A stretch of DNA of 64,000 nt from the NCBI RefSeq assembly GCF_902459525.1, contig NZ_LR699166.1, positions 2,430,501 through 2,494,500 of the forward strand, given 5' to 3'. Below the pieces are notes generated by a model. The model was not told the origin of the DNA and made no database searches. It saw nothing but the letters and a program-made list of their open reading frames with translations. A program made the translations under genes and the position numbers. Below are positions 4,730 to 61,637 of the stretch, in pieces (the first letter of the stretch is position 1; every line of letters starts with the position of its first letter). Source of the DNA: Sideroxydans sp. CL21 (GTDB taxonomy: Bacteria > Pseudomonadota > Gammaproteobacteria > Burkholderiales > Gallionellaceae).

Positions 4730-6186
4730 ACGCAAGGATTCCGTTGGGGGGCACTCTGATCCTCATGCTCGCCGCCTGCACCAACGTAGGGCCGGATTAC
4801 GCCGTACCAGCGCAGGCGAAAATCAACGCGGCGAGTGCCCAGAAGCCATTTATGGGGGCAACCCAGAGCGATCCCGTTCGGGGTAATGCACCCAACGACT
4901 GGTGGAAACAGTATAACGATGAGCAATTGAACCATCTTGTCGAAGAAGCCCTGGCCGCGAATACCGACCTGCGCATTGCGGCTGCCAATCTCGCCCGCAG
5001 CGAAGCAGTGGTAATGGAGGTCAAAGGTGCTGCAGACGTTAAAGCGAGTGCTTCAGCTTCCGCTGTTCGCGCCCGCCAATCCGGCGAGGCGTTTCTCTTG
5101 CCAACCCCCATACCCGTAGAGAATCTGGGCGACGCCGGTGTCAATGTTTCCTACCAGGTTGACCTCGTGGGCGGGTTGAAACGCGCAGCCGAAGCAGCCA
5201 CAGCTGATGCTGAAGCAAGCCGGGCGGCACTCGATCTGGCGCGCATCAGTATCGTCGCCGATGTCGCCCTCGCCTACACAGAAACATGCGCTGCCGGACA
5301 GGAACTGGAGATTGCCCGGCACAGCCTCGATCTTCAGCAACAAAATCAGGATGCAGTCGCCCGTCTGGTTGCCGGAGGCCGCAGGACAGTAGTTGATCTG
5401 CCACGCGCCAACAAACTGGTCGATCAAACCCGATCCAGCATCCCCATCTACACCGCGCGCCAACGCATCGCCCTTTACCAGCTTGCCGTGCTTACCGGCC
5501 ACACACCGGGCGAATATCCACGCGAGATCGCCAGTTGCAAACAGTTGCCGAAATTATCCAGCGCTATTCCTGTGGGCGATGGTGCAGCGCTACTGCGCCG
5601 ACGTCCCGATGTTCGCCAGGCTGAACGCGCCCTTGCCGGAGCCACCGCCCGTATCGGCATAGCCACTGCGGCGCTCTATCCCAACATTACGCTCGGACTC
5701 TCGGACGGTGCCACAGGTATTCTTGAGCATATGGGACAGAAACAGACACAACGTTGGAGCATAGGCCCGCTGATCTCCTGGAGCATGCCGGGCAATCTGG
5801 AAAAAGCCCGTCTGCGCCAGGCTGACGCCAGTACCGATGCTGCTCTGGCCCACTTCGATGCCGTCGTCCTCAAAGCACTGCAGGAAGTCGAAAATACGCT
5901 TACCGTTCTGGCCCGCGACCTCGATCGCAACACCGCACTGCGCCAGGCACGAAATGAAACCGACGAAGCCAGCCGCGAAATACAAACGCTCTACCGGGCT
6001 GGTCGCCTGACCTACCTTGACGATCTCGACGCCCAGCGTAATCTTTCAACTGCCGAAGCCGACCTCGCAACCTCCGATGTGCAAGTGGCAATAGATCAGG
6101 TCAAATTATTTCTGGCACTTGGAGGGGGATGGGAAAAAGAGGTTTCTTCAGGGAGTCAGCCGAAACTAACTGACAATGATCGATAA
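4726..6186 (+). CDS. NodT-family outer-membrane efflux lipoprotein
   Basis: 486 residues. The N-terminus is a lipoprotein signal ending in the lipobox LAAC, so Cys would be acylated and anchored in the outer membrane. It continues with the family sequence VGPDYAVP and the WWKQYND motif, then two internally related TolC-type halves of long helices (about 70-270 and 290-470), the second with RRRPDVRQAERALAGATARIG in two parts of that run. It is the exit channel for the pump, adaptor and channel set in this operon. Nothing follows on this strand, so it is the last gene of the operon. Confidence 0.88.
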   Translation: MNARIPLGGTLILMLAACTNVGPDYAVPAQAKINAASAQKPFMGATQSDPVRGNAPNDWWKQYNDEQLNHLVEEALAANTDLRIAAANLARSEAVVMEVKGAADVKASASASAVRARQSGEAFLLPTPIPVENLGDAGVNVSYQVDLVGGLKRAAEAATADAEASRAALDLARISIVADVALAYTETCAAGQELEIARHSLDLQQQNQDAVARLVAGGRRTVVDLPRANKLVDQTRSSIPIYTARQRIALYQLAVLTGHTPGEYPREIASCKQLPKLSSAIPVGDGAALLRRRPDVRQAERALAGATARIGIATAALYPNITLGLSDGATGILEHMGQKQTQRWSIGPLISWSMPGNLEKARLRQADASTDAALAHFDAVVLKALQEVENTLTVLARDLDRNTALRQARNETDEASREIQTLYRAGRLTYLDDLDAQRNLSTAEADLATSDVQVAIDQVKLFLALGGGWEKEVSSGSQPKLTDNDR

Positions 6187-49732: not shown

Positions 49733-50995
49733 TCATGGCTGCAAGTGAACCTCTACGGAGATGTGGGACAGACCTTTGAATTGCCTTAGCATAGTATGGT
49801 AGAAAGATGCCCCACGCTGAGGTTCGTGTGTGATTACGGAAACTACAGCACCAAGGTGCCCTGGGCCAAGCCGCCACACATGCAAATCAACCAATTTGTC
49901 GCCAGCCGTTTCGACTGCGCCCCGCACCTTGTTTGCCATCGAGTCGCCAGGACTGATGTCGACCAGAATCGCGCCGGTATCGCGAATCAACCCAAAAGAC
50001 CAGTTTGCGATCACGAATGCACCAATGATACCAGCGAGTGGATCCATCCATACCCAGCCAAAAGTCTTTGCCGAGATCAAACCGATAATTACCAGTACCG
50101 AAACTGCCGCATCGGCGATAACGTGAAAGTAAGCAGCGCGCATATTATGGTCGCGAGCGTCAATACCATAGTCGTCATGCACATGGCCATGTTCTTCAAA
50201 AGTTAAGCTATGTTCTCCAACCGGAAGCATTACCACCGCCCTGAACGCGTGCGGCTCGGGTATTGCCGTTGTTGATTCCAGGAAGTCCGTTGACCTGGCA
50301 AACTTGAACACCTGGAATTTTCCGTTTGGTCGAATAGTTGTGACTGTCACATCTTGTGCCGACAATTCCACACCTTCAAAAAGCGCGCGTATCCGAAAAA
50401 CAGGTGGTACGCCATCTTCGAAAATAGACAGCGCGTAAACCCCAGAGCCTGCTTTGATGTGCTGCACTTCTTCCTTGTGCTCATGGCCGACAAGTTCATT
50501 GTGCCCATGGCTGTGACCATGCCCATGGTGATCGCCGCCGTTTAACAACCATGCACTGGCAATATTGACCAGCAAACCGACCGCCGCAATAGGAATCGCC
50601 TCGCCGAAGTGAATGGGCACAGGTGACAGAAAGCGAGCAATAGCTTCATACCCAATCAGCAACGCGATCATCGCCAGGATGATCGCGCTAGTGAATCCTG
50701 CCAGATCGCCCAACTTGCCGGTTCCAAAGACAAAGCGTGGATCGTTGGCGTGCTTTCTGGCATAGGTATAGGCAAGTGCTGCAATCAACATCGCACCGGC
50801 ATGGGTGGACATATGCAAACCGTCTGCCACCAAGGCAAGTGAACCAAATAGTTTGCCCCCGACAATCTCAACGATCATCATCAAACTACAAAGAGCTATT
50901 ACCGCCCAGGTCTTGCGTTCGTTCTTGTCATGGCCTTCCCCTAAAAAGACGTGGTCATGACCAATACCAAACGGGGCATCATAAAATCTATTCAT
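49733..50995 (-). CDS. dmeF: CDF-family cation efflux protein, DmeF-like
   Basis: About 420 residues; ATG 50995 is preferred to a start 24 bases earlier. The cation diffusion facilitator core shows ADGLHMSTHAGAM and, in the second half, HVIADAAVSVLVIIG with the paired His/Asp metal site. A His-rich cytosolic loop (GGDHHGHGHSHGHNELVGHE) is followed by an inserted soluble segment of about 100 residues, the long form known from DmeF cobalt/nickel exporters. It lies 54 bp behind the csoR-type regulator on the same strand. Substrate is inferred as Co/Ni by family. Confidence 0.85.
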   Translation of the reverse strand: MNRFYDAPFGIGHDHVFLGEGHDKNERKTWAVIALCSLMMIVEIVGGKLFGSLALVADGLHMSTHAGAMLIAALAYTYARKHANDPRFVFGTGKLGDLAGFTSAIILAMIALLIGYEAIARFLSPVPIHFGEAIPIAAVGLLVNIASAWLLNGGDHHGHGHSHGHNELVGHEHKEEVQHIKAGSGVYALSIFEDGVPPVFRIRALFEGVELSAQDVTVTTIRPNGKFQVFKFARSTDFLESTTAIPEPHAFRAVVMLPVGEHSLTFEEHGHVHDDYGIDARDHNMRAAYFHVIADAAVSVLVIIGLISAKTFGWVWMDPLAGIIGAFVIANWSFGLIRDTGAILVDISPGDSMANKVRGAVETAGDKLVDLHVWRLGPGHLGAVVSVITHEPQRGASFYHTMLRQFKGLSHISVEVHLQP

Positions 50996-51049
50996 TGTGA
51001 ACTCACTTGAAATGACCAAACAATGTCGACCAGCTTCGCTGACTGTCTT

Positions 51050-51319
51050 CTAAAGGTACTTGGTGATTTCCTTGAACTCGCGAATGGTGTTGTTTGCGCC
51101 GCGAGTCCCTTTGCGAACGGAGTTTTCAAGGCAGTGATCGATGTGGTCATGAACCAGGGTTTTCTTGGCGCTGCTGATCGCTTTTTCGACGGCTTGCAGC
51201 TGTTGTGCAATGTCAAGACAGCCGCGATCTTCCTCCAGCATTGTAAGAATACTGTTCAGGTGGCCTTGGGCTCGTTTGAGCCGTTTGATTACTTCGGGGT
51301 GGGTGGCGTGTGTTGTCAT
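51050..51319 (-). CDS. CsoR/RcnR-family metal-sensing repressor
   Basis: 89 residues, all-helical, with the family pattern HPEVIKRLKRAQGHLNSIL and RGCLDIAQQLQAVEKAI. Candidate metal ligands are Cys34, His59 and Cys63, with His57/His62 close by. That spacing equals the Cys-His-Cys set of CsoR, although the N-terminal His residues and the DmeF neighbour fit RcnR/DmeR-type Co/Ni sensing. It probably represses itself and dmeF through the operator at 51333-51351. The start is only a few bases from the predicted transcription start. Confidence 0.87.
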   Translation of the reverse strand: MTTHATHPEVIKRLKRAQGHLNSILTMLEEDRGCLDIAQQLQAVEKAISSAKKTLVHDHIDHCLENSVRKGTRGANNTIREFKEITKYL

Positions 51320-52027: not shown

Positions 52028-53689
52028 ATGACAATAGTTAAACAAACTGCCGTGCTTGATAGCGCACATATTGGCGACATCCGGGGCGCCTTGGGCACGA
52101 TTCGCCACGGTGATGTAGGCCCCAGGAACGGACTGTGGCATCGCATCAAGACACTGCTGGCGATTATTGGACCGGGCATCATCGTGATGGTCGGCGACAA
52201 CGATGCCGGCGCCTTCGGTACTTATTCCCAGGCTGGACAGAACTACGGCACGAGCCTGCTCTGGGTGCTCGCCTTGCTGATTCCGGTTCTTTACGTGAAT
52301 CAGGAAATGGTCTTGCGCCTCGGTGCGGTCACCGGCGTCGGCCACGCCCGGCTTATTCTCGAACGTTTTGGCAAATTCTGGGGTGCGTTCAGCGTCATCG
52401 ACTTATTCATCCTTAACGCACTGACCATCGTCACCGAGTTTATAGGTATCAGTCTTGGCCTAGGGTTTCTCGGTGTCTCTAAGTTCGCCGGGATCGCCAT
52501 CGCGGCCGTGCTGATCATCATTGCAGCAGGAACGGGTGACTTTCGTCGCTTCGAACGCATTTCACTGATTTTGGTAGTTGGTAGCCTGTTGTTGGTGCCG
52601 ATCTTCATCATGGTGCACCCGGCAATGCCCCAGGTTGTCCATGACTTCGTGATACCTCAAATGCCGAAGGAGGCCAAACTCAGTGACATCATGCTGCTGA
52701 TCATTGCCATTATCGGAACGACGGTCGCGCCCTGGCAACTTTTCTTCCAGCAAAGCTATGTGATCGACAAGCGAATCACGCCACGTTTCATCAAATACGG
52801 CCGCATTGACCTGTGGTTAGGCATCATTATCGTGATCGTTGGCGCGGCAGCCATGATCGCGTTTACTGCGGAGATTTTTGCCGGTCGTCCGGAGTTCGGC
52901 AATTTCACGGATGCCGGCGGTATTGCGACGGGTCTTGCCACTTACCACAGCAAACTGATGGGAACCTTGTTCGCCGTTGCACTGATTGATGCCTGTATTA
53001 TTGGCGCCGCGGCGGTTTCGCTGTCAACAGCCTATGCCATCGGCGACGTACTGTCGCTGAAGCATTCTCTCCATCGCAAGCCGTCCGAGGCCAAGGGTTT
53101 CTACGCGGTCTATGTGGCGCTGATCGTGGTTGCAGTGGCATTGGTGGTTATGCCGGGTGTACCCCTTGGCCTCCTGACCAACGCTGTGCAAACGCTGGCT
53201 GGAATATTGTTGCCAAGTGCGTCGGTATTTTTACTCCTGCTGTGCAACGACAAAGAAGTGCTTGGCCCTTGGGTCAATAGCAAAAGCACCAACCTCTTCA
53301 CTGCCATTGTGTGCGGTATTCTCGTGCTCCTGTCGTTAATTCTGACGGCTTCCATGGTGTTCCCGGATATTTCTGGCGATTCGATCATGCTGATTCTCGC
53401 CGGCGGCGGCATTACTGGCCTGCTGATCGCGATCGGCATGTGGGCTCTGCGCATATACAAGGCGGCTGAACGCCGAGAATTCGAAGCTGAACCTTCAGTG
53501 ACTTATGCTGCCAAGGATGCCATCAACTGGCGGATGCCGCCGCTGAATGAACTGAAACCGCCTCAATTATCGTTCACGACGCGAGTCTGGCTGGGAATAT
53601 TGCGCGCTTATCTGGTGATAGCTACTGTCATGGTCGCCTACAAGGTCATCCAACTGGCATTTGGACACGCTCAAATTTATAAATATTAG
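52028..53689 (+). CDS. NRAMP-related magnesium-type transporter (NRMT 1)
   Basis: 553 residues, LeuT/NRAMP fold with about 12 helices. In helix 1 the canonical DPGN is replaced by DNDAG (57-61). In helix 6 the metal-binding Met is replaced by Ala, seen as TTVAPWQLFFQQ (A234-P-W). These two changes mark the NRMT branch, reported to move Mg2+ and Mn2+ rather than soft transition metals. After helix 11 a soluble linker of about 40 residues leads to a last helix TTRVWLGILRAYLVIATVMV. That last part matches a separate small gene behind NRMT 2. The N-terminal 35 residues are an extra cytosolic arm. Substrate is by family. Confidence 0.8.
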   Translation: MTIVKQTAVLDSAHIGDIRGALGTIRHGDVGPRNGLWHRIKTLLAIIGPGIIVMVGDNDAGAFGTYSQAGQNYGTSLLWVLALLIPVLYVNQEMVLRLGAVTGVGHARLILERFGKFWGAFSVIDLFILNALTIVTEFIGISLGLGFLGVSKFAGIAIAAVLIIIAAGTGDFRRFERISLILVVGSLLLVPIFIMVHPAMPQVVHDFVIPQMPKEAKLSDIMLLIIAIIGTTVAPWQLFFQQSYVIDKRITPRFIKYGRIDLWLGIIIVIVGAAAMIAFTAEIFAGRPEFGNFTDAGGIATGLATYHSKLMGTLFAVALIDACIIGAAAVSLSTAYAIGDVLSLKHSLHRKPSEAKGFYAVYVALIVVAVALVVMPGVPLGLLTNAVQTLAGILLPSASVFLLLLCNDKEVLGPWVNSKSTNLFTAIVCGILVLLSLILTASMVFPDISGDSIMLILAGGGITGLLIAIGMWALRIYKAAERREFEAEPSVTYAAKDAINWRMPPLNELKPPQLSFTTRVWLGILRAYLVIATVMVAYKVIQLAFGHAQIYKY

Positions 53690-53699
53690 AGAATTCACC

Positions 53700-55331
53700 A
53701 TGAGCAAAATCCGCTGGAATCTTAATCCTCGTGCCTGCATCGCAGGCGAGAGGAAGAAAAGCGACGTGGCTATTCAGCGAATCGTTGCAAATAAAGTTCA
53801 AGCAACAATAGTGAATGTTGCAATATTAACGCAACATTATTTTCATATTATCTTGGCTATGTTTGATTCGAAAATGGTGCCTGCCAGGCAGCGACTCCCC
53901 GGGCACCGTAATACTTCCTTGGCAAAGCAATTCATATTCGTTTTGCTGTCTGGAGCTTTTTTCTGTGTTCCCCATACGGTGATTGCTGAAACAGGGGCGC
54001 AAGACACAACCTCATCGAATATCGATTTAGCTGCAATCGAAGTCTCTCCGCCCGCTAAAAATTTGACAGATAACCTGCCACTGGCACCAAAAGGATGGGG
54101 GGTTTATGGCCAATTCACCGGAGTCAGCCAAACGCACCCGGGATTCTCGTCGCCTTATCAAGGCCAAAACAGTTTGAGTTCGGGTGCCGCGAGTACTGAA
54201 ACGACCGATGTGACGGTATTTGCGGGGATGCGTCTCTGGAATGGTGGGGAGCTTTGGATGAATCCGGAAGTCGACCAGGGGTTTGGCTTCAACAATACCC
54301 TTGGAATGGCCGGTTTTCCAAGTGGTGAGTCATACAAGGTTGGGGCAAATACCCCCTACCTTCGCCTGCCTCGGCTGTTTTACCGGCAGACCGTCAATCT
54401 GGGTGGAAAAGAGCAAACCGTCGCGCCAGGGGCCAACCAGATAGGTGGAACCCAAACTGCTGACAACATTATCATGACGCTCGGCAAGTTTTCCGTGGTA
54501 GACATTTTCGATACCAATTCCTATGCACATGACCCACGAGCCGATTTTATGAACTGGTCGATCGTGGAGTCGGGCGCTTTCGACTATGCGGCCGATGCTT
54601 GGGGCTTTGCCAAAGGTGTTTCCCTCGAATGGACGCAATCCTGGTGGACTTTGCGTAGCGGATTCTTCGATCTGTCCACGATCCCGAATACAACGATTTT
54701 GGATCAATCATTCAGGCAACATGAATGGGTCGGCGAAGCCGAGGAGAGACATCAACTGTGGGAGCATCCGGGCAAACTGAAGCTATTGTACTTTGTCAAC
54801 CAAGGGGACTTTGGAAATTATGCAGATGCAGTGCAACTCGCACAAAGAACAGGCAGCACGCCGAATACTTCCCTAGTCCGGCGCTACAGTTCGCGCCCTG
54901 GAGGCGCTGTCAATCTGGAACAGGAAGTCTCTGCCAATATGGGATTGTTTGCCAGAGCAAGCATGAATGACGGCAGCAAGGAAGCTGATGAATTCTCCGA
55001 GATCAACCAGTCAGTCACTGCAGGGCTATCCTTGAAAGGTGACCAATGGGGGCGTCACGACGATACGTTCGGCTGGGCCGCCGTAGTCAATGGAATTTCA
55101 AGCGATGCGCGCAGTTATTTTGCAGCCGGGGGTATGGGGATATTGATTGGTGATGGACGGCTTCCGCATTACGGCTCGGAGAAGATCATGGAAACTTATT
55201 ATTCCTATGCCGTGCATGCGTTTGAGCACCTGATGCTCACATTGAACTACCAGTACGTTGTTAATCCAGCCTATAACCAAGACCGGGGTCCGGTATCGAT
55301 TATTGGTGCCCGTGTGCATATGGAGTTTTAA
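53700..55331 (+). CDS. OprB-like outer-membrane porin
   Basis: 543 residues if it starts at ATG 53700, 10 bp behind NRMT 1. The carbohydrate-selective porin pattern is seen in WGVYGQFTGVSQTHPGFSSP and YQGQNSLSSG, then ELWMNPEVDQGFGFNNTLG, and it ends GARVHMEF with a terminal Phe. The signal peptide lies at about residues 77-98 (FIFVLLSGAFFCVPHTVIAE), far from the N-terminus. The first 55-70 codons, which include a hairpin at 53728-53750, may therefore be an untranslated leader; ATG 53859 or 53874 would then be the start, though neither has a ribosome site. A pathway for ions or small solutes is the likely role. Confidence 0.72.
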   Translation: MSKIRWNLNPRACIAGERKKSDVAIQRIVANKVQATIVNVAILTQHYFHIILAMFDSKMVPARQRLPGHRNTSLAKQFIFVLLSGAFFCVPHTVIAETGAQDTTSSNIDLAAIEVSPPAKNLTDNLPLAPKGWGVYGQFTGVSQTHPGFSSPYQGQNSLSSGAASTETTDVTVFAGMRLWNGGELWMNPEVDQGFGFNNTLGMAGFPSGESYKVGANTPYLRLPRLFYRQTVNLGGKEQTVAPGANQIGGTQTADNIIMTLGKFSVVDIFDTNSYAHDPRADFMNWSIVESGAFDYAADAWGFAKGVSLEWTQSWWTLRSGFFDLSTIPNTTILDQSFRQHEWVGEAEERHQLWEHPGKLKLLYFVNQGDFGNYADAVQLAQRTGSTPNTSLVRRYSSRPGGAVNLEQEVSANMGLFARASMNDGSKEADEFSEINQSVTAGLSLKGDQWGRHDDTFGWAAVVNGISSDARSYFAAGGMGILIGDGRLPHYGSEKIMETYYSYAVHAFEHLMLTLNYQYVVNPAYNQDRGPVSIIGARVHMEF

Positions 55332-55372
55332 CTTCGAAATGTTAATCGTTATGAGTCTGAAGGGCATTCCCT

Positions 55373-55870
55373 ATGCATATGGCTAAAATAATTTTGGCTA
55401 CGGCGATCATTCTTTCATTCATTAGGTTCGCCGTTGCAGAAGAATCCACACCCTCTTCAACTTCACTTGATTTCAATACTATTGTGATTGAAGTATTGGG
55501 AGAGGTTCCGGGCTTAACTCAGGAACAATTGGTCAGCTATTTGATCAAGAAAATGCAAGCTGCAACCGATACTCATTGGCATTCTGTTGCGGTGAAACCG
55601 GGAGAGGCAGATTCACCCAACCGTGTGGTTTGGACTTTCAAGACATTGCGAAAAGTAGTCTGGAAGGGAGGATCCCATAAAGGGTTTCAGTCGCCCGCAC
55701 ATTCGGAGACTTATCTCAGGGCAGAGGCAAAACTATATTTTATGGGAGTCTACCAGATGACCATGGATACGCACCCCTCGGTCAGTAGTGACGACTATCA
55801 GTTTTTATCAGAAATGGCACACAACGCAGCCCATGCCATGTTCGTCGAAAACAAACCAGATATTCAATGA
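55373..55870 (+). CDS. Secreted protein of unknown function between porin and NRMT 2
   Basis: 165 residues with two close starts (ATG 55373 and 55379). A signal peptide ends RFAVA-EES. The mature protein is mixed alpha/beta with WHSVAVKPGEADSPNRVVWTFK in two parts of that run, several His, and HNAAHAMFVE at the end. No cysteines and no membrane helix. It should be periplasmic. I do not recognise a family. Its place between the porin and the second transporter suggests a part in the same uptake route. Confidence 0.6.
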   Translation: MHMAKIILATAIILSFIRFAVAEESTPSSTSLDFNTIVIEVLGEVPGLTQEQLVSYLIKKMQAATDTHWHSVAVKPGEADSPNRVVWTFKTLRKVVWKGGSHKGFQSPAHSETYLRAEAKLYFMGVYQMTMDTHPSVSSDDYQFLSEMAHNAAHAMFVENKPDIQ

Positions 55871-56188
55871 AGATGCCGCTTTCGCTACAACGGGAGCCAA
55901 ATATTGATGCAACCAGATTTGGTAGACATTTATGCCGTGCACTTCCGCGTAGAGCTTAAGCAATTAGAGATACTAAATGAGCCAAACTTTCCGTAATTCT
56001 GGCGAAAACATTACCCATTCATGCCGTTGTGACTGGCAATAATTCAGTGACTTAAGCATGGAAGCGATAAATCAAATCAATGCCTCATAACTCGACACAC
56101 TTGTCAGCATGACGACCGCATTTGTGCTCGGAAGTGTTATACCCTTCTAATTAAGGATCGATACAAGCACCCTCACATTGGGACCAAT
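55871..56188. other. 318-bp spacer before NRMT 2
   Basis: No gene and no clear promoter. Unlike the leader of NRMT 1 it shows no run of hairpins, so the two transporters seem to be controlled differently, or this one is read from upstream. Confidence 0.4.
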
Positions 56189-57457
56189 ATGGACATATTT
56201 TCCAAACTTTACTACTTGTTCCGAAAGTACCTGAAAGCGATTCAGATCTATCTGGTCATCGCTGGACCGGGGCTTGTGGTCATGATTGCCGACAATGATG
56301 CCGGAGGAATTACGACCTATGCGGCCACCGGTGCAAAGTATGGCTACAACCTGATCTGGTTTTTGTTGATCCTGATCCCGGTCGCCTACTACGTTCAGGA
56401 AATGACGGTGCGCTTGGGTGTGGTCACCAAGCGGGGGCATGCTGAAGCGATTTTTGACGGCTTCGGTGCTTTTTGGGGTTGGTTCTCGCTGATCGACCTG
56501 ATGATTCTGGATTGGTTGACCTTGGTCACCGAATTTGTCGGAATGACTTCGGCCCTGCACATCTTCGGAGTGCCAGCCTGGCTGACGGTGATCGGTGTTG
56601 TAGCCTTGATGGGAATGATCATGCTGAATGGTCGTTACTGGACATGGGAAAAAATTACCATGGGGTTCTGCGCCCTGAACCTGATTTACATTCCGGGTGC
56701 ATTCATGGTCAACCCGTCGGTTTCGGACATCCTCGGCAACGGCCTGATTCCCAACTTTCCGGGAGGATTCAACGGCGAGCTGTTTTTCATACTGATGGCC
56801 AATATCGGTACCACCATCGCGCCCTGGATGCTGTTCTTCCAGCAAAGTGCCGTGGTCGATAAAGGCATGCAGGAAAAAGATATTCCCTGGGGCAAATTCG
56901 ATACCTTATTGGGAGCAATATTAACGGTCGTGGTGGCGATATTCATCGTCATTGTCACTGGAACCGTCTTAAAAGGCATCGATATCGATGACGCATCCCA
57001 AGCTGCCCAGCAATTGATGCACACCAATCACTATGTTGGCGCTTTCATGGCCATCGGCCTGTTTGACGCGGGTTTGCTCGGTGCGCTCTGCATTTCGCTG
57101 GCAAGTTCATGGGCTTTCGGCGAAATCTTCGGTTGGGCGCATACCTTAAACACAAAAATCAAGGAGTCCCCTTGGTTCTATGCCAGTTACTTTTTTACTT
57201 TGGCAACTGCGGGACTGGTAGTACTGATTCCCGGAGCACCTCTGGTATTGATTACACTATTCGTTCAAGTGGTAGCCGTGACTTTGCTCCCTGCCGCCCT
57301 GGTGTTCCTGATTCTGCTGCTGAATGACAAAAAACACATGGGAGAGTATGCCAATACATTGAGTCAGAATTTGATTGGCGGCTTTATCGTCATCTCCATT
57401 GTGATTCTGTCCACACTATATGGTGTCAGCGTGATGTTCCCTAACCTGTTCCATTAA
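56189..57457 (+). CDS. NRAMP-related magnesium-type transporter (NRMT 2)
   Basis: 422 residues and about 11 helices. Helix 1 has DNDAGG (35-40) and helix 6 GTTIAPWMLFFQQS (A211-P-W), the NRMT signature with the soft-metal Met missing. It is about 130 residues shorter than NRMT 1: it lacks the N-terminal arm and stops after helix 11 (YGVSVMFPNLFH). The missing last helix appears to be encoded by the next gene, 14 bp downstream. Substrate Mg2+/Mn2+ is inferred from the family and from the MgtE-N protein behind it. Confidence 0.82.
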   Translation: MDIFSKLYYLFRKYLKAIQIYLVIAGPGLVVMIADNDAGGITTYAATGAKYGYNLIWFLLILIPVAYYVQEMTVRLGVVTKRGHAEAIFDGFGAFWGWFSLIDLMILDWLTLVTEFVGMTSALHIFGVPAWLTVIGVVALMGMIMLNGRYWTWEKITMGFCALNLIYIPGAFMVNPSVSDILGNGLIPNFPGGFNGELFFILMANIGTTIAPWMLFFQQSAVVDKGMQEKDIPWGKFDTLLGAILTVVVAIFIVIVTGTVLKGIDIDDASQAAQQLMHTNHYVGAFMAIGLFDAGLLGALCISLASSWAFGEIFGWAHTLNTKIKESPWFYASYFFTLATAGLVVLIPGAPLVLITLFVQVVAVTLLPAALVFLILLLNDKKHMGEYANTLSQNLIGGFIVISIVILSTLYGVSVMFPNLFH

Positions 57458-57471
57458 ACGGAGAATCGAGT

Positions 57472-57645
57472 ATGTTATTAAGTATTCGCCGCTTCTCAGC
57501 AAAAATACGCGAAATCAATCACCGATACAGCAAGCCGCATATCGAAATGTCACTTGGCGTCAAGATATCGCTGATGGCTCTGCGGATTTACCTTTTTGTC
57601 CTGGTAGGTTTAATCCTTTATAAATTTATCCTGATGCTGAACTGA
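57472..57645 (+). CDS. 57-residue membrane protein, detached last helix of an NRMT transporter
   Basis: ATG 57472 has GGAGA seven bases upstream; TGA ends at 57645. The N-terminal half is basic and cytosolic (RRFSAKIREINHRYSKPH); the C-terminal half is one helix, LRIYLFVLVGLILYKFILML. Aligned with the end of NRMT 1, the KP-x(8-12)-VW/IS-LxxLRxYLxxxxxxxxYKxI pattern is shared. I infer that it is the final helix of NRMT 2 made as a separate subunit. It lies between the transporter and the MgtE-N gene with gaps of 14 and 11 bp. Confidence 0.72.
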   Translation: MLLSIRRFSAKIREINHRYSKPHIEMSLGVKISLMALRIYLFVLVGLILYKFILMLN

Positions 57646-57656
57646 GGAATAACCAA

Positions 57657-58913
57657 ATGGCCGCTGTACTGGAGCACAAATTCTTTCTGAGTGAAATTAT
57701 CGGACGCAAGGTCTATCTGAAATCAACGTTAGAGCAGATCGGACGTTTGACAGACATGGTGATGATTGAAACAGGCAAGCTTCCCGAAGTTAGTCATTTC
57801 GTCGTCAGTCGGCCATTTGGCTATCCTTCATTGTTAATGCCGCTGAACAAGCTGACGCTGATTTCAAAAACTGAGATCGTATTTGACGTTAGCGGCCTTA
57901 TCGAGTGTACACGCGAGCCGCCTGAGGGCTCAATCCTGCTTCGCGCGCATATCCTCGACAAGAAGATTCTTGACATGGACGAACACGAGGTTGAGGTTAT
58001 CTATGACATCAGCCTCGATTTTCAGGGAAGCAAGTTGTATGTCAGCGAAGTCGATATCAGCAGACGACGTGTATTACGCAGGATGGGTCTGGGATGGCTG
58101 GCTGACTGGTTATCCGAGCAAAGGAAAGAAGATACGATGATCTCCTGGCTGTATGTCCAGCAGTTGCCGGAGGGAATTGATGCTTTCAAAGGTCATGTCA
58201 AACTCAGCATTCTCAAGGAAAATATCAGCGATATTCATCCGGTCGATTTGGCAGACATTCTCGAAGAGTTGGATGGTGATCAACGCATTGCGGTATTTAA
58301 TGAGATTGAGCCGGAACAAGCCTCCGAAACTTTGGAAGAAGTGGAGCCTAGGGTTCTACGAGAACTGATCCGAGCGATGAGTAAACGCCAGGCGGCAACA
58401 TTGATCAATGCCAGGAGTCCGGCGCAAGCAGCCGCCATTCTGGCAGCACTACCTTCGGCCGAAGCCGATGAACTGCTTCAATTGATCGATAAGGATCGCG
58501 CCACCAAGGTGCAGAATATCATCGACCACCATGATGAAAATATCCTTCTATTCTCCACACAGAAATTCATAAAAATGCCTGAGACTACACAGGTCGAAGA
58601 GGTAATGACGGACTTTCGGAAGATCGCTCGCGATATGGATGTGATCATGTATGTGTATGCCACAGATGAGCTGGACAGATTAAAGGGAGTTGTCGATTTG
58701 CGGGAACTGATTGCCGCCGAACCTGACCAGTCAATCGGCGAGATCATGACCGACAACATCATCAGCTTGAACCCCAACGATACATTACGCGATGCGATAG
58801 AAATGTTCGACCGCTATAGTTTTCGTGCCATTCCTGTCACAGACGATCAAGACAAACTATTGGCTGTAACTTCTTTTAGAGATATTCGCGGTATAGAGCC
58901 ACGATTGAGTTAG
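57657..58913 (+). CDS. Cytosolic MgtE-N/CBS magnesium-sensor-like protein with PRC-barrel
   Basis: 418 residues without membrane helices. Residues 8-155 resemble two PRC-barrel units (IIGRKVYLKSTLEQIGRLTD, KILDMDEHEVEVIYDISL). Residues 185-300 form the MgtE N-terminal superhelix (HPVDLADILEELDGDQRIAV, EPRVLRELIRAMSKRQAATL). Residues 305-418 are two CBS units (GVVDLRELIAAEPDQSIGEI, RAIPVTDDQDKLLAVTSFRD). In MgtE these last two parts bind Mg2+ and gate the pore; here they exist without any channel and follow an NRMT transporter. A role as its Mg-responsive regulator is inference, well supported by domains and spacing. Confidence 0.82.
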   Translation: MAAVLEHKFFLSEIIGRKVYLKSTLEQIGRLTDMVMIETGKLPEVSHFVVSRPFGYPSLLMPLNKLTLISKTEIVFDVSGLIECTREPPEGSILLRAHILDKKILDMDEHEVEVIYDISLDFQGSKLYVSEVDISRRRVLRRMGLGWLADWLSEQRKEDTMISWLYVQQLPEGIDAFKGHVKLSILKENISDIHPVDLADILEELDGDQRIAVFNEIEPEQASETLEEVEPRVLRELIRAMSKRQAATLINARSPAQAAAILAALPSAEADELLQLIDKDRATKVQNIIDHHDENILLFSTQKFIKMPETTQVEEVMTDFRKIARDMDVIMYVYATDELDRLKGVVDLRELIAAEPDQSIGEIMTDNIISLNPNDTLRDAIEMFDRYSFRAIPVTDDQDKLLAVTSFRDIRGIEPRLS

Positions 58914-58923
58914 GAGCTAGGTG

Positions 58924-59244
58924 ATGTCGAGTACGCTTGAAAAGCTTCAACTTATGATTGTCGAGCTATTTGGAATACGGCTAACAGAAATCGAATTGGA
59001 CATTCCTTTGCAATATGTTGGAATGGATGCTTCCAATCTGGAAGAATTGCGAATTTTCATTGAAGAAAACTACACAATTGATATGTCCGTAGTTGAAGAA
59101 GAACACCACGAAGTAGACATCGATATGCCAGCACAAAATCTGAAGGATCTAACCCTGCGACAGATTGCTAGTTGGGTAGATGCTTGGATCAATCGAGATG
59201 AAATGCATCCTCGACATCATGTTAGATGCGCGAAACCATCTTAA
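58924..59244 (+). CDS. Acyl-carrier-protein-like protein without the carrier serine
   Basis: 106 residues; GGAG lies seven bases before ATG 58924, and the gene begins 10 bp behind the MgtE-N gene. The helix pattern LEKLQLMIVELFGIRLTEIE, LDIPLQYVGMDASNLEELRIFI, LKDLTLRQIASWVDAWI follows acyl carrier proteins closely. At the site of the phosphopantetheine serine (GxDSL) it has GMDAS; with ungapped alignment the Ser position is Ala and a Ser comes one residue later. It may be a scaffold and not a carrier. An acidic loop EEEHHEVDID is inserted before the last helix. Confidence 0.6.
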   Translation: MSSTLEKLQLMIVELFGIRLTEIELDIPLQYVGMDASNLEELRIFIEENYTIDMSVVEEEHHEVDIDMPAQNLKDLTLRQIASWVDAWINRDEMHPRHHVRCAKPS

Positions 59245-59809: not shown

Positions 59810-61018
59810 TTATGCACTCTTTGGTTCTTTTGACTCAAAATGTAGATAATCAGCCCAAAGTTGCATGGCTTTGTGTCGTTCTTCGAGATACATCAAATGA
59901 GGTTTATCGAGGTAAGCGGCTTCGATCTTGTCTTTTTCGATATGACTAAGTTGCACTTCGATGATATGGGGCGGGAACTTGCCCTTGTCTTTTAGCCATG
60001 TTGATGCGACCGTACGTACACCGTGGGGCACGATACCTAACTTGTGTACGCGAAAGGCTAAAGAGAGTGCATCGCGACAGAATGCATCTTCTCTCTGGTT
60101 TGATGGAAACAGCCATGGAGTGTTTCCAGTCACTTCCTTCAGCTCTATAAGGAGCTCGATTGCCTGGCTTGCCAACGGAACGATATGCAACCTTTTCATT
60201 TTCATTCGTACTGCCGGAACTTCCCATTCTTTTTTTTCAAAATCGAACTCATCCCATCGCGCACCCATGGTCTCAGAGCCACGTAGCCAGACAAGGAATT
60301 GAAGCTTCATCGCCGAGCGCATGATAAACTTTTCGTAGGTTTCAATAGATTGGAAAGAGGCTTGTATGCTGTCCGGGATCTGCTTTGGTTTTGGAGCAAC
60401 CTTGTGAAGCACGCCCTGCATATCGATCATCGTGTACGGCGGACGCTTACCACCTTGGATCGCATATCTGATGATCATGGTGACAAGATCCATGCACTTC
60501 TTCGCCAAGCTGTTTGATCGCTTATCAATCTTGCGCAGGAGCGGAACGACCTCGGGAGCGTGAATGTCTTTGATGTCTCGATGCCCAAGAGCGGGGTAAA
60601 GATCGTTCTTAAGGCACTCCAGATATTTCTTGACAGTCGCTTCAGCAATCACAGACTTTTTCCATGAAACGAAATTCTCAGCAACCATTTTGAAGGTATT
60701 AACCTCAGGTACGACCTCAGGAGACACTGGATTTATACCTTGGCGAATCTTGGCAGCCATTCTTGCGGCAATTTCTCTCGCCTCACCCAGAGTTGTTTTG
60801 GGGTATGGAGAAGCACCTGGTAATGCTGCCCGGGTATCTTTGCCATTGAACAAATATTTCATCCGCCAAAGTTTCGCTCCGTTTGGCTGAACCAATAAAT
60901 GCAGTCCGGTCACTTTTCCATCAAAGAGCGCTTTTGACGTGACTTTCCCATCTGCGGCAACCTTGGGTGATGCGTTTCGAATCTTGACGTCTGACAAAAT
61001 GGGAATAATTTTGGGCAT
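59810..61018 (-). CDS. int: Tyrosine-type site-specific integrase (P4 type)
   Basis: 402 residues. The N-terminal DUF4102 arm-binding domain (about 1-95) shows KALFDGKVTGLHLLVQPNGA and LGEAREIAARMAAKIRQGI. The catalytic domain carries Arg in WLRGSETMGARW, HGVR (box II, HxxR), the LSH motif and the nucleophile Tyr in KIEAAYLDK. All catalytic residues are visible, so it is likely active. This class typically targets tRNA 3' ends, and tRNA-Leu is 533 bp upstream of its start. An inverted repeat at 61023-61048 overlaps its leader. Confidence 0.9.
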   Translation of the reverse strand: MPKIIPILSDVKIRNASPKVAADGKVTSKALFDGKVTGLHLLVQPNGAKLWRMKYLFNGKDTRAALPGASPYPKTTLGEAREIAARMAAKIRQGINPVSPEVVPEVNTFKMVAENFVSWKKSVIAEATVKKYLECLKNDLYPALGHRDIKDIHAPEVVPLLRKIDKRSNSLAKKCMDLVTMIIRYAIQGGKRPPYTMIDMQGVLHKVAPKPKQIPDSIQASFQSIETYEKFIMRSAMKLQFLVWLRGSETMGARWDEFDFEKKEWEVPAVRMKMKRLHIVPLASQAIELLIELKEVTGNTPWLFPSNQREDAFCRDALSLAFRVHKLGIVPHGVRTVASTWLKDKGKFPPHIIEVQLSHIEKDKIEAAYLDKPHLMYLEERHKAMQLWADYLHFESKEPKSA

Positions 61019-61550: not shown

Positions 61551-61637
61551 TGGTGCGGGGCAAGGGACTCGAACCCTCACGTCCTTACGGACACAGCCAC
61601 CTCAAGGCTGCGCGTCTACCAATTCCGCCAACTCCGC
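61551..61637 (-). tRNA. tRNA-Leu (anticodon GAG)
   Basis: 87 bases including the encoded CCA. The anticodon stem CAGCC/GGCTG holds the loop TTGAGGT (anticodon GAG), the variable arm is GTCC-GTAA-GGAC, and the T-loop TTCGAGT is standard. The acceptor stem pairs GCGGAGT with GCCCCGC and has one A-C mismatch at position 5-68 and a final U-G pair. The 3' end is the integration site of the island; the last 23 bases are repeated at 33347. Confidence 0.93.

Follow-up and report, generated by a model that had tools for sequence, protein, structure and literature searches.

The NRMT locus and its small gene

In the window, that is, the whole 64-kb stretch of DNA that was analysed, positions 52028-58913 hold, in this order, genes for the transporter NRMT1, an OprB-type porin, a 165-aa protein, the transporter NRMT2, a 57-aa open reading frame (ORF), and a 418-aa sensor. 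NRMT1 (52028..53689, + strand) is a fused-type transporter of 553 aa (Pfam Nramp, 2.5e-78), while NRMT2 (56189..57457, +) is composed of 422 aa (Pfam Nramp, 5e-75). The small gene (57472..57645, +) begins with an ATG at 57472, ends with a stop codon at 57643-57645, and encodes a single-pass protein, the free helix unit of this locus. A probable ribosome-binding site, GGAGA (57460..57464, +), lies 7 nt ahead of the ATG; 14 nt separate the gene from the NRMT2 stop codon and 11 nt from the next gene. The first-pass annotation had placed a 57-residue gene with a ribosome site directly behind NRMT2, and its coordinates proved to be correct. The membrane helix of the small protein, delimited by hydropathy and conservation, spans approx. 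residues 30-52 (57559..57627, +) and includes arginine 38 (Arg38; 57583-57585). The protein matches no Pfam or NCBIfam model at E values up to 1; it represents a short protein family that is absent from the copies of these databases that were searched.

The third gene of the group (57657..58913, +) encodes an MgtE-like sensor of 418 aa in which PRC-barrel, MgtE_N, and CBS domains are recognized by Pfam, and the protein matches the N and CBS domains of MgtE in the PDB (6e-24). In its MgtE_N and CBS domains, it resembles the cytoplasmic N-CBS part of MgtE (2yvy, 2yvx); unlike MgtE, however, it stands alone as a protein, has a PRC-barrel match, and lacks the MgtE membrane domain (PF01769 is not among the nine Pfam families found for it at E values up to 1).

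Occurrence and conservation of the small gene

Relatives of NRMT2 were sought in one genome per species across 84,980 species; 169 stretches were confirmed, and the best 80 were kept. Among these best 80 of 169, a small ORF lies directly behind the NRMT2 gene in 79 (tblastn), and in the sole exception (L049) the contig stops inside the NRMT gene. Small ORFs behind related NRMT genes, for which the first-pass annotation had proposed a search, are thus the rule at these loci. The 80 loci come from taxa including Betaproteobacteria, Gammaproteobacteria, Magnetococcales, Chlorobiaceae, and Phyllobacteriaceae; the three closest NRMT2 matches are labelled Proteobacteria or Gallionella.

In 75 aligned small proteins, eight residues are invariant: I15, P22, L34, L37, R38, Y40, L41, and V45. 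Across 28 relatives of equal length, pN/pS has a mean of 0.33 and a maximum of 0.52, and the differences at the three codon positions number 490/305/893. The conservation of the free helix follows an alpha-helical periodicity that is matched by none of 5000 shuffles, whereas the periodicity of the fused helix described below is reached by 51 of 5000. A ribosome-site pattern precedes 65 of the 75 small genes, although this pattern is loose and the count is not relied on. The 57-codon ORF is a real gene that evolves as a protein.

Within a sample of 369 genomes of the class, the small gene is rare. A single-sequence search gave matches at E ≤ 1 in 46 genomes and the 75-row profile gave matches at E ≤ 0.01 in 11, the own genome being included in both counts. 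The other matches were ascribed to chance: they cover only part of the sequence, many are interrupted by stop codons, and their best E values are 0.0126 (single sequence) and 0.00138 (profile). The helix profile has no match among solved structures at E values up to 10.

It had also been claimed that such tiny genes are usually missed by annotation. This holds for the form of the gene found behind NRMT2 (type A), which is not in the gene tables of two of two plasmid records, the PLSDB tables being themselves incomplete; it does not hold for the longer type-B genes described below, which are annotated as hypothetical proteins in all three named records. The two plasmid records (L135, at 5283-5453, and L149) are large conjugative plasmids of Citrobacter freundii and Serratia marcescens, each with an A-type triplet whose 56-aa helix gene is missing from the table. 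Plasmid A-type triplets lie near genes for P-type ATPases and ArsR or winged-helix regulators. The presence of the triplet on conjugative plasmids means that its transfer from one lineage to another is possible.

Homology to the last helix of NRMT1

As the first-pass annotation stated, NRMT1 ends with a final helix. This C-terminal stretch (KPPQLSF...LRAYL...YKVIQL) contains an invariant LRxYL motif whose arginine, Arg526, is encoded at 53603-53605, and the fused helix unit as a whole covers approx. residues 513-546 (53564..53665, +), as delimited by BLASTP, hhalign, conservation, and position. Compared pairwise, the small protein and the NRMT1 tail are only weakly similar (BLASTP: 31% over 29 aa, E 0.008). 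When the own genome (one contig, 3.77 Mb) is searched with the single 57-aa sequence, only the ORF is listed, without the NRMT1 tail.

By profile, the similarity far exceeds what chance would give. For the fused form, 21 long-tail NRMT1-type carriers from plasmids and genomes were aligned. When the 75-row profile of the small protein is compared with the fused tail by hhalign, the profile alignment that had been proposed as a check is significant (score 40.4, E 1.4e-7, probability 94). In the control comparisons, the tail window scores 41.5, whereas NRMT1 windows off the tail do not exceed 12.2, NRMT2 windows stay at or below 12.5, and the reversed profile reaches 11.3; none of 200 block shuffles reaches 40, the maximum being 26.6. 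The reverse approach gives a similar picture. A model was built from 19 fused tails, excluding both the 64-kb window and L122, a near relative of it. Applied to the 80 loci with their 15,938 six-frame ORFs, it ranks the 79 small ORFs (four of them identified by coordinates) and one NRMT1 (L035) ahead of all the rest; the weakest small ORF has an E value of 0.14 and the first unrelated match one of 0.16. In the window, the same model ranks NRMT1 first and the 57-aa ORF second of 1,435 six-frame ORFs (E 1.2e-5), and the third ORF follows at E 0.026. At the level of sequence profiles, the homology between the small protein and the last helix of NRMT1 can be regarded as secure.

Topology of the fused and free forms

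Hydropathy distinguishes 13 hydrophobic segments in NRMT1, 11 in NRMT2, and one in the small protein. NRMT2 does stop before the final helix, as had been noted; however, NRMT1 has two helices that NRMT2 lacks, the one that matches the small protein and an additional TM12 (approx. residues 453-471; 53384..53440, +), which is also present in the alignment of 21 fused sequences. This TM12, overlooked by the first-pass annotation, makes the fusion topologically possible. Nramps begin inside, and an 11-helix Nramp ends outside. The first 33 residues of the small protein contain seven K/R and two D/E, so the protein should start inside. A helix that starts inside cannot directly continue a carrier that ends outside: either it is made as its own chain or the carrier gains one more crossing first, and TM12 is just such a crossing in the fused clade. 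As the helix would join only after this additional crossing, the fused carrier has two helices more than the free-type carrier rather than one.

EcoDMT and human DMT1/NRAMP1 are 12-helix Nramps. Like them, NRMT1 extends at its C-terminus beyond TM11, though by two segments. An AlphaFold model of NRMT1 is weak (pLDDT 59.6, pTM 0.60); in its structural alignment, some rows place the end of NRMT1 in the C-terminal part of the 12-helix Nramps. The predicted model of a read-through chain of NRMT2 and the helix is unusable (pLDDT 49.5, pTM 0.50).

Further free types and the carrier tree

Three further free types of the helix gene, described here for the first time, were found. Type B comprises helix genes of 65-98 aa behind NRMT-like genes (L126, L127, L136 from A. 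caldus, L137 from Acidiphilium, and L154). In type C (L165, L166), helix genes of 63-64 aa overlap the NRMT stop codon by 4 nt and are followed by a sensor gene. Type D (L167, L168) consists of helix genes with an ambiguous start codon behind NRMT-like genes. Since a model built with types B, C, and D would be circular evidence for them, these types were assessed with leave-out models on a set without L154; these recover types C and D and three of the four type-B proteins tested, but not L137. In particular, a model of types A and F only finds L167 (2.7e-5), L168 (1.9e-4), L165 (2.7e-4), L127 (0.0017), L126 (0.0025), L166 (0.0027), and L136 (0.011), and does not find L137. With fused tails only, the E values are 1.8e-4 for L135 and L149, 0.002 for L168 and L167, 0.0023 for L127, 0.017 for L126, and 0.19 for L136, and L165 (E 4.8), L166, and L137 are not recovered. 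In 14 helix-less loci, the helix model finds nothing below E 0.2 among 1,409 ORFs; in five further helix-less loci, it finds nothing below that value among 657 ORFs.

The carriers were placed in a tree of 72 selected tips, in which type A is represented by 21 carriers rather than by all 80 loci. All 51 helix-bearing carriers are monophyletic (support 0.965), with no helix-less carrier inside their clade, and this clade splits into a fused branch (21/21) and a free branch (30/30), each with a support of 1.0. The helix and this group of carriers have been inherited together. Profile homology, genomic position, and the tree agree in supporting the first-pass view that the two neighbouring transporters have the same unit, attached in NRMT1 and separate in NRMT2.

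The ion sites vary within the clade. NRMT2 carries DAGG / TTIA, which fits the DxxG / TxxA(T) signature described for NRMTs (PMC8806188). NRMT1, with DAGA / TTVA, departs from this signature, having DxxA in place of the DxxG of known NRMTs; among the fused carriers, 16 of 21 have DAGA and 5 of 21 DAGG. Both type-D carriers deviate as well, with DGPS / ATVT in the alignment. DAGA in most fused carriers and DGPS / ATVT in type D may shift metal preference. Among the helix-less carriers, only L150 and EleNRMT have DxxG-TxxA, and the placement of EleNRMT in the 72-tip tree has a support of 0.065. With so few helix-less carriers of this signature, and with type D lacking it, the contrast between NRMTs with and without the helix rests on few helix-less NRMTs. 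EleNRMT has 11 membrane-spanning segments, according to the available portions of PMC8806188; an NRMT can thus exist without such a helix.

Acidic residues of the carrier and the helix arginine

Twelve alignment columns are acidic in at least 90% of the fused and type-A carriers, and at only two of these, 103 and 293, is the acid absent from all 26 helix-less comparison carriers (15 helix-less tips, 6 outgroup Nramps, and 5 further carriers). Column 103, in TM3, corresponds to Asp103 of NRMT2 (56495..56497, +) and is Asp in all 51 helix-bearing carriers of the tree set. Column 293, in TM8, corresponds to Asp293 (57065..57067, +) and in the same 51 carriers is acidic in 47, Asn in two, and Thr in the two of type C. 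In the wider set, it is Asp in 73 and Asn in 3 of 76 type-A carriers, Asp in 20 and Asn in 1 of 21 fused carriers, and Glu in 5/5 of type B and 2/2 of type D. Of the 12 columns, column 380 is mostly gap in the helix-less carriers, and 293 alone loses its acid in type C.

Type C, the one type with Thr at position 293, is also the only one in which the LRxY arginine of the helix is missing (2 sequences). In L165 and L166 this arginine is replaced, and the protein is otherwise similar. The four carriers with Asn at 293 (3/76 of type A, 1/21 fused) keep the helix arginine. The pattern suggests, as one correlated loss in one lineage, that the helix arginine may track the acid in TM8. Mutual information within type A (75 sequences, Neff 26.6) points to no clear site; R38 is invariant there, so the pair lies outside the reach of this method.

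The sensor gene

A relative of the sensor is found in 78 of the 80 NRMT2 loci (best 80 of 169); the contigs of L034 and L049, the two exceptions, stop before it. Elsewhere, the association is looser. In a survey of adjacent genes, for which the flanks of genome loci mostly extend about 1.3-1.6 kb, the sensor lies beside the helix in types A and C (2/2) and in 6 of 20 fused loci, while no adjacent sensor is seen in 14 of 20 fused loci or in types B and D (0/7). Conversely, L150 has a sensor without a detectable helix. A clear stand-alone sensor is present in 2 of 13 genomes with a helix-bearing carrier, namely the own genome (G000) and G474. In G482 and G656, a strong MgtE_N match and an MgtE membrane domain share one frame, judging by frame length and contig. 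Weak MgtE_N matches occur above the curated cut-off in G629, G805, and G828 and below it in G007 and G656; these lie in frames of 240-349 aa, which we take to encode other proteins such as FliG. The helix is therefore also found in genomes without a clear stand-alone MgtE_N partner, which is a new observation. In the own genome, the MgtE membrane domain (PF01769, 6e-27) is also encoded, in an ORF apart from the sensor gene (G000:C1:975583-975969, - strand), and MgtE_N has no second match.

An MgtE_N neighbour of NrmT genes is already known: it was reported by Shin (2014; PMC4072509), where, in the portions available, feedback control is speculated on and an A. capsulatum relative is regarded as more likely a Mn carrier. 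As far as those portions go, the described NRMT/NrmT proteins (C. acetobutylicum Ca_c0685, EleNRMT 7qia) resemble NRMT2 in their Nramp fold, DxxG-TxxA site, and MgtE_N neighbour; what the available portions of PMC4072509 and PMC8806188 do not describe is a small membrane gene such as the one studied here. Titles and abstract openings among the literature matches listed contain no single-helix gene beside an Nramp, which is not proof of novelty.

A probable two-part transporter and alternative explanations

Judged from sequence comparison, NRMT2 and the small protein likely form, as the first-pass annotation had proposed, a two-part transporter, in which the helix may have a regulatory or assembly role; this is the best reading of the data. 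The small gene probably encodes a single-pass inner-membrane subunit of NRMT2, the detached counterpart of TM13 of NRMT1. The small protein would insert with its basic N-terminus in the cytoplasm, and its helix would pack on the 11-helix carrier, probably near TM3 and TM8. There, the invariant R38 may pair with D293, the TM8 acid specific to helix-bearing carriers, and the helix could complete and stabilise the carrier, acting in its assembly or gating. The MgtE_N-CBS protein of this operon would probably be a separate, optional cytosolic metal-sensing module.

Accessory single-pass subunits are of a known kind, though the natural experiment offered by the fused and free forms is unusually clean. 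A precedent is MgtS, which, according to the available portions of PMC5803215, packs against TM5 of GkApcT, a carrier of the LeuT fold, with its N-terminus on the cytoplasmic side; the proposed helix would likewise belong to a tiny single-pass protein that starts inside and packs on a carrier of this fold. MgtS, however, is an E. coli protein on a foreign carrier, whereas the helix studied here is encoded beside the carrier, is conserved, and forms part of the carrier chain in the sister clade. Moreover, the melting temperature of GkApcT is unchanged without MgtS (58 versus 57 °C; same source), so packing alone need not mean function.

Three other explanations have to be weighed. The similarity of the two helices might reflect convergence of hydrophobic segments with a chance LRxYL, the role of the small gene being unrelated. 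The marginal pairwise BLAST result (E 0.008) and the ease with which membrane helices mislead would allow this, but the profile scores of 40-41 for the last helix against at most 12.5 for NRMT windows off the tail, the shuffles (0/200), the placing of 79 small ORFs first by the fused-tail model, and the recovery of types C, D, and three of four type-B proteins by leave-out models make it very improbable. Alternatively, the main task of the helix might be to bring the MgtE_N-CBS protein to the carrier, as a membrane anchor or adaptor. In types A (78/80 loci) and C (2/2), the gene behind the helix gene is that of the sensor, and the basic N-terminal part of type A (KIREINxRY), which would face the cytoplasm, is well conserved. 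However, with a clear stand-alone sensor in only 2 of 13 helix-carrier genomes (the own genome and G474), no adjacent sensor in types B and D (0/7), and a sensor without a detectable helix in L150, this explanation is unlikely, and the helix is probably not a mere anchor of the sensor.

The remaining alternative takes the helix for an independent regulator of carrier turnover or activity, like MgtS or MgtR, and not for a constitutive subunit. MgtR is a small protein that acts on Mg transporters. A separate gene would permit a separate stoichiometry, and stabilisation of MgtA by MgtS is described in the available portions of PMC5803215. On the other hand, fusion in the sister clade implies a fixed 1:1 stoichiometry there, and the operon position is tight (14 nt, and in type C a 4-nt overlap with the NRMT stop codon). 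The own genome shows no second copy, as far as can be said from a search too blunt to list even the NRMT1 tail. Such a regulator is thus rather improbable, and the subunit reading is preferred.

Within the helix-bearing branch, a carrier expressed from the large gene alone would be missing a part that has been retained during evolution, either in cis or in trans, and such expression may fail or mislead for this reason. The natural occurrence of both fused and free forms provides a ready system for studying the addition of a helix under topology constraints. A bolder version can be put forward tentatively, and we consider it more doubtful than not: the whole clade might be obligately two-piece, with the helix supplied in trans (free) or in cis via the added TM12 (fused) and held by an intramembrane Arg-Asp/Glu pair, the A and C assemblies being read by the separate MgtE_N-CBS sensor. 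If true, this would be a three-component, metal-gated LeuT-fold transporter built from parts that are fused in other families.

Other features of the neighbourhood

Several other genes of the window surround the two transporters. The OprB-type porin (53700-55331, +) lies between NRMT1 and NRMT2 and has a relative in 8 of 80 loci, in 7 of them upstream of NRMT2 (tblastn). It is followed by the 165-aa protein (55373-55870, +), which has no Pfam or NCBIfam match and is present in 1/80 loci. Behind the sensor gene, a 107-aa protein (58921-59244, +) with a sub-threshold acyl-carrier match (Pfam E 0.059) is likewise found in 1/80 loci. No Rfam family other than a tRNA reaches its gathering score between 48000 and 62000, and no magnesium riboswitch was seen in that interval. 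The tRNA gene (Rfam) lies at 61554-61637 (-), and close to it an ORF at 59810-61018 (-) resembles, by eye, a P4-type tyrosine integrase; the metal-transport cluster may lie at the end of an integrated island. Divergent to NRMT1, a cation-efflux (CDF) gene and a metal-sensitive repressor (PF02583, 6e-23) occupy 49733-51319 (-). In several plasmids, repressor, cadR, CDF, MgtC, or porin genes flank helix-bearing NRMTs, and such metal-related flanking genes hint at substrates other than Mg.
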